From positions 1-45,684 of IMG/VR virus record IMGVR_UViG_3300034684_000191: a stretch of DNA of 45,684 nucleotides; one strand, 5' to 3'. The first letter of the stretch is position 1. Each line of letters begins with the position of its first letter. Both the position numbers and the translations under genes were made by a program. Below the pieces are notes generated by a model that worked only from the letters and a program-made list of their open reading frames with translations, did not search any database and was not told the origin of the DNA. Shown here in pieces: positions 2,617 through 4,799 of this stretch. Source of the DNA: a virus.

Positions 2617-2829
2617 GTGAATGAACGATTGCAAACCGCCGCCCTGCAGAATGCAGGTACAACCGAGGAGCTGATTGGCGTTCTCACCGCCATCAGCGTT
2701 GTGTCGGGGCGTATGGCCATGAAGCTAGCTATCCTCAAGCGGCGCACAGCCCGGAGAGGTGGTGAATGGCCTCATGCCCGTGGAGCAACACAGCCTGCCG
2801 CCCATGCCCGTCAAAGCCACCCCCTATAA
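2617..2829 (+). CDS. small conserved phage protein of unknown function
   Basis: This 70-residue protein begins with GTG at 2617, 8 bases after GGAGG. The N-terminal 45 residues ('ERLQTAALQNAGTTEELIGV' then 'LTAISVVSGRMAMKLAI') look helical and are the plausible core. The last 25 residues are basic and low-complexity, and overlap the start of the helicase fragment at 2774 in another frame. Similar short proteins precede SNF2-type helicases in related clostridial prophages, as far as I recall. No catalytic motif is visible and no function is assigned. Confidence 0.6.
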   Translation: MNERLQTAALQNAGTTEELIGVLTAISVVSGRMAMKLAILKRRTARRGGEWPHARGATQPAAHARQSHPL

Positions 2830-2968
2830 GCACCAGCGGGAGGCGTTCGCCTTCGCCTGCAGGCTGTTCGGATTGGCGAAGGGTGGTGATGCCGGTGCGG
2901 ATCAGGTGCGCACAGTGCGGGAAAGAGATACACCGCAAACGCAGCGAGATGGAAAAGCATCACCATAG
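2774..2968 (+). pseudogene. N-terminal fragment of the SNF2-type helicase, cut off by an HNH gene
   Basis: The frame encodes 'KATPYKHQREAFAFACRLFG', the Q-motif-like start expected just before the P-loop of the helicase whose body begins at 3498. After about 40 helicase-like residues ('LAKGGD') the frame runs into the HNH gene and continues 25 unrelated residues to a stop at 2966. The ATG at 2774 follows an AGAGGTGG site; starts at GTG 2762 or ATG 2804 are also possible. It may be a dead fragment, or it may be translated and pair with the C-terminal piece, as in known phage genes split by free-standing homing nucleases. Which applies cannot be decided here. Confidence 0.65.
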
Positions 2969-3479
2969 TTTTTGCTCTCGGGCCTGTGCCTCGGCGTTTT
3001 CTCGTACCGGCCAAGTGGTCACTTGCGACTGGTGCGGTACCGCCTTCTACAAACCGGCCTCCCGGCTCAGGAAACAAAACTTCTGCTCCTACGGCTGCCG
3101 GAACAAATGGCTCGGCAAGGTGAACGTCGAGGTGCGAAACGTCCCCGGCCACAGTGCGGGCCACAAGGCCCCGCATTTGCGCGAACTCAACCAGCGCCGC
3201 AATCCCCTCGGGCGGATGGCAAAGAGGCCAATCCGGGGCACGTCGTCGGCAACGTACCGCAAGGTGGCCGAAGAGATGCTGGGGCGTGCGCTCCGGCCCG
3301 GCGAAGTGGTCCATCACATTAACGGCAACCGCTCGGACAACCGGTATGAGAACCTCGCGGTTCTGCCGGAACAGGAGCACCGCAGGCTCCATATGCATCT
3401 GGCCTGCCGGAAGCTGGAGTTGCTCGAGGAAGGGGGTGGTACCGTATGTCAAAAGAAGAAGCCCTCTCCCGAGGAGTAG
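2889..3479 (+). CDS. HNH endonuclease inserted in the helicase gene
   Basis: This 196-residue protein has two N-terminal zinc-finger-like modules: 'RCAQCGKEIH' with 'FCSRAC', and 'TCDWCGTAF' with 'FCSYGC'. They are followed by an HNH core near residues 125-165, where 'GRALRPGEVVHHINGNRSDN' and 'RYENLAVL' give the paired histidines and the N-x8-ENL element. This is the layout of phage HNH homing nucleases, with zinc fingers for DNA recognition and HNH for cutting. The ATG at 2889 lies inside the helicase N-terminal frame, and the stop overlaps a helicase-like segment at 3446. GGGTGGT occurs at both edges (2881-2887 and 3434-3440). There is no room for an intron core. Confidence 0.85.
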   Translation: MPVRIRCAQCGKEIHRKRSEMEKHHHSFCSRACASAFSRTGQVVTCDWCGTAFYKPASRLRKQNFCSYGCRNKWLGKVNVEVRNVPGHSAGHKAPHLRELNQRRNPLGRMAKRPIRGTSSATYRKVAEEMLGRALRPGEVVHHINGNRSDNRYENLAVLPEQEHRRLHMHLACRKLELLEEGGGTVCQKKKPSPEE

Positions 3480-3496
3480 CCCTTTTGATGGAGTGA
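3446..3496 (+). pseudogene. stranded helicase segment just before the P-loop
   Basis: ATG at 3446 opens 16 codons, MSKEEALSRGVALLME, then TGA. 'ALLME' is what normally precedes 'MGTGKT' in this helicase family, and the body restarts at ATG 3498 in another frame. Removing four bases (TGAG, 3494-3497) would join them seamlessly, so this is a frame break at the P-loop. Alternatives are a genuine mutation, +1 recoding (GAG-U-GAG), reinitiation at the nearby ATG, or a sequencing error. Confidence 0.6.
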
Positions 3497-3497
3497 G

Positions 3498-4799
3498 ATG
3501 GGCACAGGCAAAACCATCACCAGCATCGGCATCGCCGGGGCACTGTACCTCGCCGGCAACATTCGCCGGGCACTGGTCGTGGCCCCCCTCTCCATCCTCG
3601 GCGTCTGGGAGGACGAGTTTGCCAAGTTCGCAGATTTCCACTACACACTGCTGGTGCTCACCGGCAGCGGAACAAAGAAGGCCGATGCCCTTCGACATCT
3701 GGCCGAGTCCCCCCTGCAGGTGGCCGTGGTCAACTACGAATCGGCGTGGCGGCTGGAAAAGGAAATCCTCGCGTGGAAGCCCGACCTCATCATTGCTGAC
3801 GAGGGCCACAAAATCAAGACCCACAACATCGCCGCATCCAAGGCCATGCACCGGATCGGCGCGCAGGCGGCCTACCGGCTACTGCTGACGGGCACCGTCA
3901 TCACCAACAAAGCCATCGATGTGTTTTCGCAGTACAAGTTCCTCAACCCGGCCATCTTCGGCCAGAGCTTTTACTCGTGGCGTAACCGCTATTTTGATAT
4001 GCGCGGCTATGGCAATCACACCCCCGTCCTTAAGCGGTCCATGGAGCAGGACCTCATGCGCCGTCTACACTGCATCGCGTTCCGTGCGACAAAGAGCGAA
4101 TGCCTGGATTTGCCGGAAACCACCGACATCGTGCGATATGTGAACCTCGAACCTGCTGCCGTGAAGCTGTACCGGGATTTGGTAAAGGAGTCCTACGCCG
4201 AGCTCGGCCAGAGCGAGATTACCGTGACCAACATTCTCACCCGTCTGCTTCGGCTGTCTCAGCTCACCGGGGGGTTCCTCGGGGACGACGAGGGCAACGC
4301 TCCGCAGCGGATCAGTACCGCGAAGATGGCGGCGCTGGAGGATATCGTGGACGAGGTGACCCAAGAGGGCAAAAAGCTGGTGGTCATTGCCCGGTTCGTG
4401 CCGGAGATACGGGCTATCTGCCAAATGCTCGAAAAGCGCGGTATCGGCTATTCCTACATCATGGGCGAGGTGAAGAACCGCGACGAACAGGTGGCCGCTT
4501 TCCAAAATTCCCCCGATACGCAGGTATTTGTGGGGCAGATCGCAACCGCTGGCCTCGGAATCACGCTGACCGCCGCCAGCACCATGGTGTTTTATTCGGA
4601 GGATTACAGCATGAGCAACTTTGAACAGGCCAAGGCCCGCATCCACCGAGTCGGACAGAAAGAGAACTGTACCTACCTGTATCTCGTGGCACGCGGCACG
4701 GTGGACGAAAAGGTGCTCAAGGCCCTGCGAGACAAGGCCGACCTTGCCCGGACGCTGGTGGATGATTACCGGCAGGGCCGTAACCCCTTTACAACTTGA
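3498..4799 (+). CDS. SNF2/DEAD-like helicase, main part (N-terminus displaced)
   Basis: This 433-residue ATPase is related to SNF2-type translocases used in phage replication. The P-loop GTGKT is at residues 2-6, motif II DEGH at 101-104, and motif III-like 'RLLLTGTVITN' follows. The C-terminal domain has 'QIATAGLGITLTAAS' and motif VI 'QAKARIHRVGQ'. The reading frame begins exactly at the P-loop, which is abnormal: the expected 50 or so N-terminal residues lie upstream at 2774-2968 and 3446-3496. Either this piece is translated alone from ATG 3498, or it is completed by recoding or by association with the fragment. It leads the replication operon and is followed 17 bases later by a zinc-ribbon gene. 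Confidence 0.85.
   Translation: MGTGKTITSIGIAGALYLAGNIRRALVVAPLSILGVWEDEFAKFADFHYTLLVLTGSGTKKADALRHLAESPLQVAVVNYESAWRLEKEILAWKPDLIIADEGHKIKTHNIAASKAMHRIGAQAAYRLLLTGTVITNKAIDVFSQYKFLNPAIFGQSFYSWRNRYFDMRGYGNHTPVLKRSMEQDLMRRLHCIAFRATKSECLDLPETTDIVRYVNLEPAAVKLYRDLVKESYAELGQSEITVTNILTRLLRLSQLTGGFLGDDEGNAPQRISTAKMAALEDIVDEVTQEGKKLVVIARFVPEIRAICQMLEKRGIGYSYIMGEVKNRDEQVAAFQNSPDTQVFVGQIATAGLGITLTAASTMVFYSEDYSMSNFEQAKARIHRVGQKENCTYLYLVARGTVDEKVLKALRDKADLARTLVDDYRQGRNPFTT

Follow-up and report, generated by a model that had tools for sequence, protein, structure and literature searches.

How can a functional helicase be made from a gene that is interrupted by a stop codon within the P-loop, the most conserved motif of the protein? 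This question is raised by a 45,684-bp viral DNA (IMG/VR virus record IMGVR_UViG_3300034684_000191), taken here over its whole length and referred to as the window; among the relatives, the window locus is labelled L008. A first-pass annotation had described a helicase gene split by a free-standing HNH nuclease gene, a GGGTGGT motif at both edges of that gene, and a 4-nt frame break, TGAG, at the P-loop. All the pieces were found where it had placed them, as were the two edge motifs, GGGTGGT and GGGGGTGGT (Table 1).

Anatomy of the interrupted gene

Table 1. Features of the interrupted helicase locus (positions in the window)
Feature	Position	Strand	Remarks
N-terminal helicase fragment (MPVEQHSLPPMPVKATPYKHQREAFAFACRLFGLAKGG; MPVKATPYKHQREAFAFACRLFGLAKGG...)	2774..2968	+	ATG 2774; stop at 2968 within the HNH gene
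GGGTGGT	2881..2887	+	Helicase-coding; also resembles a ribosome-binding site for ATG 2889
HNH endonuclease gene, 196 aa	2889..3479	+	ATG 2889, TAG 3479; Pfam HNH_3 E=2e-12
GGGGGTGGT	3432..3440	+	Likely ribosome-binding site for ATG 3446 of the 16-codon ORF
16-codon ORF MSKEEALSRGVALLME	3446..3496	+	ATG 3446, TGA 3494-3496; predicted to supply the strand preceding the P-loop
5' arm TGTCAAAAG of the 5' stem-loop	3447..3455	+	From stem comparison across relatives
3' arm CTTTTGATG of the 5' stem-loop	3482..3490	+	Ends directly before the take-off codon
Take-off codon GAG (Glu)	3491..3493	+	From allele comparison
4-nt insertion TGAG	3494..3497	+	Stop TGA 3494-3496, landing codon GAG 3495-3497
Helicase body from MGTGKT	3498..4799	+	ATG 3498; SNF2-related domain and Helicase_C

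The body carries an SNF2-related domain (SNF2-rel_dom PF00176, E=5e-29) and a Helicase_C domain (PF00271, E=1e-11), and the solved structure nearest by sequence, using the intact relative L001 as a query, is 1z63, an Snf2/Rad54-family helicase. Judged from these matches, the window body is an SNF2-type phage helicase. The HNH protein bears an FCS-type zinc finger at its N end in addition to the HNH_3 domain. In other HNH loci, a Shine-Dalgarno sequence and ATG equivalent to those of the 16-codon ORF are found downstream of the HNH gene, while in L005, which has no HNH gene, GGAGGTGATG stands at the place equivalent to GGGTGGT.

The N-terminal helicase fragment is kept 5' of the HNH gene in most HNH-bearing relatives and is continuous with the body in intact relatives. 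The first-pass annotation had remarked that an active helicase lacking its Q-motif region would be unusual; in most HNH loci, a Q-like N-terminal region is retained as a separate ORF, and the fragment that it encodes would work in trans. As a separate observation, a TAA closes the N-terminal ORF of L283-L285, L313, L314, L317-L319 and L324 about 70 nt ahead of the body, and the ORF that follows (ISKEEAKSKGVALLME or ISKEQ...) carries ATC at the place of the ATG of other loci; this junction could reflect either a further site of recoding or a scar of HNH origin.

Intact genes, which the annotation had suggested seeking, exist among the relatives, and these do not begin at MGTGKT without an upstream part. 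They read LLM-GAR-ATG-GGN-ACN-GGN-AAR without a gap. Compared with them, the window has four extra bases, TGAG, and its junction reads GGAGTGAGATG; the frame break is thus real.

P-loop insertions across the helicase family

Relatives were gathered from viral contigs and genomes, giving about 181 loci after dereplication. Of the 169 loci gathered first, 116 had an intact gene and an insertion in the P-loop was present in about 50 (duplicates included), the uninterrupted P-loop being the state of most relatives. Dereplication left 49 insertion-bearing loci with 34 different alleles, 4-10 nt long and located within the P-loop codons ALLM-E/M/G/T-G/KT (slashes mark insertion points). Four positions are used: after GAR (E/M class, the window type), after ATG (M/G class), after GGN (G/T class) and, once, after the GGT of TGK, so that the take-off tRNAs are those for Glu, Met and Gly. 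The rare fourth position (TGAC after the second P-loop glycine codon, GGT-TGAC-AAR) is shared by two distant loci, L028 and L303.

On a FastTree phylogeny, the insertion state changes at least 25 times. It should be noted that the alleles are partly kin by descent and that allele-level p values overstate their independence. Because insertions are present in records titled as named strains and in one complete genome (e.g., L103, L122-L125), they cannot as a whole be put down to faulty assembly. Moreover, since insertions of this kind, short and in most cases containing a stop, are found again and again at a small set of codons, and frame breaks elsewhere in the helicase bodies are rare (flagged in 4 loci), TGAG exceeds what chance would give. 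What had been taken for a lone break in the window is hence a genuine insertion and one allele of a family, many of whose loci have no adjacent HNH gene. The body of L149 has a single in-frame stop at residue 266, in a variable loop between DPRP and LVSS.

A megablast search with 3.5 kb around the site gave no match among annotated phages; in protein searches, the best identity was 50% in phages and at most 31% in plasmids. Pattern matches in L182, L186, L190, L191 and L197 were discarded as lying outside the family, with no relative of the helicase body, and those in L199/L200 as distant helicases without a stop at the match.

The insertions follow common rules. A stop codon opens 32 of the 34 distinct insertions, directly after and in phase with the preceding codon, where 1.6 would be expected. 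Their last triplet pairs with the tRNA of the take-off codon at two or three positions in all 34 alleles, and at all three in 16, about half of the landings being 2-of-3 matches only; when landings were permuted among alleles (20,000 permutations), the mean was 18 and the maximum 27 of 34. In the 16 alleles with three pairs, codons that are identical or read by the same tRNA stand a few nucleotides apart on either side of the stop; the window allele, GAG-T-GAG, has TGA between matched codons. L076 (AGAA) and L142 (CCACG) fit the landing rule and lack the immediate stop codon. We also observed that the base after the stop is C in 22 of the 32 stop-first alleles; in E. coli, termination is known to be less efficient in such a context.

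An HNH homologue lies adjacent and upstream in 33 of the 181 dereplicated loci, i.e., an HNH-domain protein is encoded in or beside the interrupted gene. The canonical uninterrupted MEMGTGKT occurs in none of these 33 loci compared to 59 of 138 loci without HNH (p=2e-7, kinship ignored), and a tree-aware test of HNH against insertion (independent pairs) gave a median p of 0.016. L092 turned out to carry a 5-nt insertion, TAGAC, rather than a substitution, and in the remaining HNH carriers, which have no insertion, the motif contains GKS, AEM or MDM. In three HNH-bearing loci (L038, L050 and L121), the ORF that begins downstream of HNH continues directly into a GKS helicase body. These loci display the normal unit of translation, which is broken elsewhere by the insertion. 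L172 and L196 retain the leader ORF and the insertion, the HNH gene being gone. By inspection, the long HNH form goes with E/M and the short form with G/T or M/G, in a cassette-like manner.

The lack of the canonical site in HNH-bearing loci is as would be expected if the insert gave immunity to the nuclease. Carriers are without an intact site as far as canonical MEMGTGKT is concerned; this pattern suggests that the HNH protein would cut the intact P-loop DNA, its recognition site being presumed to lie there. The HNH gene and the insertion would then form a homing cassette, in which an insertion or a substitution changes the presumed cleavage target in the P-loop DNA.

The upstream stem-loop and selection around the gap

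A third feature, detected at the family level, is a 5' stem-loop upstream of the take-off codon. The stem is typically of 8-13 bp, with loops of 6 to 26 nt, and its 3' arm ends 0-2 nt before the take-off codon. Folding of the 60 nt upstream of the take-off, compared to shuffled sequences, gave a mean z of -1.58 for insertion loci (n=45) and -0.06 for intact loci (n=116). Under the same constraint, none of the 116 intact genes reaches, in any register, the median stem score of the insertion genes, and stem scores differ between insertion and intact genes in the three main classes (MWU p 8e-6, 5e-7 and 2e-12). In each of these classes the 3' arm lies directly against the take-off codon, the stem register moving with the insertion site, and the arms differ by class (TGTCAAAAG/CTTTTGATG, TTCCATAAG/CTTATGGAA and CATTTCCA/TGGAAATG).

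Covariation was observed between the synonymous wobble position of the Glu codon and its partner, with 25 A:T and 5 G:C pairs, no mismatch and one unpaired case. Stem positions are paired in 90% of cases, compared to 39-49% when the stem is slid, and the covariation score lies above those of all 500 shuffles. Within the window's insertion class, TTGATGGA in the 3' arm is invariant. The window stem is not significant when taken alone (z -0.55 for the dinucleotide fold, arm shuffle p 0.085), and the case for the stem therefore rests on the family; the stems of L076, L210, L211 and L142 are weak by shuffle. RNA structure downstream of the site does not differ between insertion and intact loci, and a GGG/CCC mini-hairpin across the stop, seen by eye in some alleles, is not general. 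No Rfam match was found in the window locus, L003, L150 or L304. The body of L150 (GYGN/.../TPVMK) is broken by an insert of about 150 nt with a stop, and contains another long insert that keeps the frame.

A divergent subfamily (GFGxLFEMGCGKT, 45-48% identity), found by further genome searches after the three rules had been formed, provided a held-out set. It comprises TAGTA after GAA in L302, TGAC after GGT in L303, two insertions in the single P-loop of L304 (TGACGCCCCATAGAA after GAA and, a few codons further downstream, TGAAAACCGGA after GGT), and TAGGA after GGT in L305; four of the five alleles are new, because L303 repeats the L028 insertion. All five begin with a stop, and in all five the landing pairs at two or three positions. 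Each is preceded by a stem of 7-13 bp that ends 0-1 nt before the take-off, and the arms are unrelated in sequence (shuffle p values of 0.033, 0.083, 0.046, 0.054 and 0.0015). An HNH frame lies upstream in L302 and L304. The two successive stop-bearing insertions of L304 measure 15 and 11 nt, and the 5' arm of the second stem lies within the first gap.

We then considered whether the interrupted genes are still in use. Within groups sharing an insertion, the omega of the body is 0.03-0.3 (mostly <0.15), similar to that of intact genes; for the L052-L122 pair, for example, dS is 0.49 and dN 0.014. Such dN/dS values rule out simple P-loop pseudogenes, and by this measure the helicase genes with an insertion are alive, their body being under purifying selection. 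Codons just before the stop show a pN/pS of 0.13-0.21 in frame and of 0.8-2.4 out of frame; for the 16-codon ORF of the E/M class (SRGVALLME), the values are 0.14 in frame versus 1.2-2.4 in the others. Selection on both sides of the gap suggests that the two ORFs are joined in one polypeptide. The AlphaFold model of the intact relative L001 (mean pLDDT 74) puts a strand at residues 43-47, just before the P-loop, and a body starting at MGTGKT would therefore lack this strand.

Probable reading across the gap

We consider it quite probable that programmed ribosome hopping over the stop ('stop-hop'), assisted by the 5' stem-loop, restores MEMGTGKT. In the window, the ribosome would start at ATG 3446 and translate MSKEEALSRGVALLME up to GAG 3491. 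As TGA enters the A site, the peptidyl-tRNA(Glu) would release and re-pair with GAG 3495-3497, and decoding would restart at ATG 3498 to give ...GVALLMEMGTGKT..., as in uninterrupted relatives, with GVALLMEMGTGK as the junction peptide. The stem would close fully only as the ribosome advances, thus giving a forward bias, as proposed for T4 gene 60. Re-pairing at the last triplet yields an uninterrupted product at every insertion length; plain readthrough is excluded, as lengths of 4, 5, 7, 8, 10 and 11 nt change the frame.

For the window's class, reinitiation is a real rival because ATG 3498 follows the insertion there. The 16-codon ORF would end at TGA and translation would restart one base later to produce a body beginning MGTGKT, the insertion improving the GGAG-to-ATG spacing. 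Reinitiation close to a stop is ordinary, and the native ATG is kept after the insertion in all main-set E/M alleles. However, 27 of the 34 alleles have no ATG, GTG or TTG between the stop and the P-loop Lys, and 18 have no usable body-frame start at all, while sharing the same stop, landing and stem features. Moreover, the amino-acid constraint on SRGVALLME would be unneeded for a mere leader, and the product would be without the strand that precedes the P-loop. We thus regard reinitiation as unlikely.

An alternative to which we give equally little credence is that stem and stop act as a regulatory switch that normally halts helicase synthesis, hopping being rare or induced. The stem does pair with the start region in the E/M class (its 5' arm includes the TG of ATG 3446), and T4 bypassing is itself about 50% efficient (PMC11194080); nevertheless, any full product in the G/T class would still require hopping.

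The first-pass annotation had proposed recoding of GAG-U-GAG by a +1 shift. Recoding is indeed favoured here, in the form of a hop with take-off at GAG over the stop TGA to the landing GAG, because the gaps of other alleles reach 12 nt. For the window allele alone, a 4-nt insertion is compatible with a shift at the stop, GAG-U-GAG being read as Glu-Glu to give MEEMGTGKT (peptide GVALLMEEMGTGK); a +1 shift cannot, however, cross the 2-12 nt gaps of the sister alleles and would place an extra residue in a conserved P-loop, making it very improbable. Simple mutation, also put forward, is unlikely given the recurrence, the purifying selection and the shared stop, landing and stem features. Finally, that the insertions are loss-of-function scars, i.e., mis-repaired nuclease cuts in dead helicases, is scarcely credible: although they sit where the nuclease target would be and have microhomology-like ends, the body 3' of the insertion is under purifying selection (e.g., L052-L122), 32 of 34 start in phase with a stop, and the covarying stem is in register with translation.

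Returning to hopping, it is likely that these genes form a large natural family of short-distance stop-hops, in which helicases of phages of Clostridia and relatives repeatedly gain P-loop inserts of 4-15 nt, each consisting of a stop and a landing codon and linked to a 5' stem-loop beside the take-off codon. The inserts would confer immunity to HNH homing nucleases and also travel as their cargo, and two hops would follow one another in at least one gene. Our findings suggest that recoding sites evolve time and again at the most conserved motif of a protein, driven by homing nucleases. Gene callers would split such genes at the stop. The dozens of natural alleles in this family differ in gap (1-12 nt), take-off tRNA (Glu, Met or Gly), landing (exact or near-cognate) and stem, so that the roles of the stop codon, codon matching and 5' stem can be tested separately.

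Evidence for the bypassing of coding gaps has so far come from T4 gene 60 and from yeast mitochondria, together with a small number of candidates that are unconfirmed, and short natural stop-hops had been predicted without a known example (PMC5009743); we found no report of this helicase case in the limited collection of literature searched. In Magnusiomyces capitatus mitochondria, many short byp inserts in coding genes are bypassed harmlessly and 2-of-3 pairing is accepted (PMC5009743). These elements belong to mitochondria and are described as not depending on mRNA context, whereas the present ones are confined to one motif of phage genes and accompanied by a stop and a stem. As with free-standing HNH homing endonucleases, an HNH_3 protein lies beside a gene whose intact site carriers lack; its cleavage of that site is here a prediction from sequence.

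The synthetic E. coli 'stop-hops' of Weiss et al. (1987; summarised in PMC5009743) resemble the present case in that matched codons flank a stop, the hop is short and the product has a single residue there. Natural occurrences of hopping over an in-frame stop were not known according to a 2016 review (PMC5009743); the helicase alleles, in contrast, are natural, evolutionarily maintained and equipped with a dedicated 5' stem.

The closest parallel in overall organisation is T4 gene 60/mobA, where an HNH gene splits the parent gene, matched codons flank the gap, a stop follows the take-off codon and a 5' stem-loop is thought to drive forward movement (PMC5009743, PMC3014915, PMC11194080); the helicase family likewise has an HNH gene, matched codons, a stop and a 5' stem-loop. 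The two differ in scale: gene 60 has a gap of ~50 nt with an A-site take-off stem-loop, for which the 1-12 nt gaps of the helicases leave no room, and the KKYK peptide motif of T4 is absent from the window leader. Unlike gene 60, the helicase family comprises dozens of alleles at several P-loop positions, often with 2-of-3 landings, and concerns an SNF2 helicase rather than a topoisomerase, with two predicted hops at one locus.
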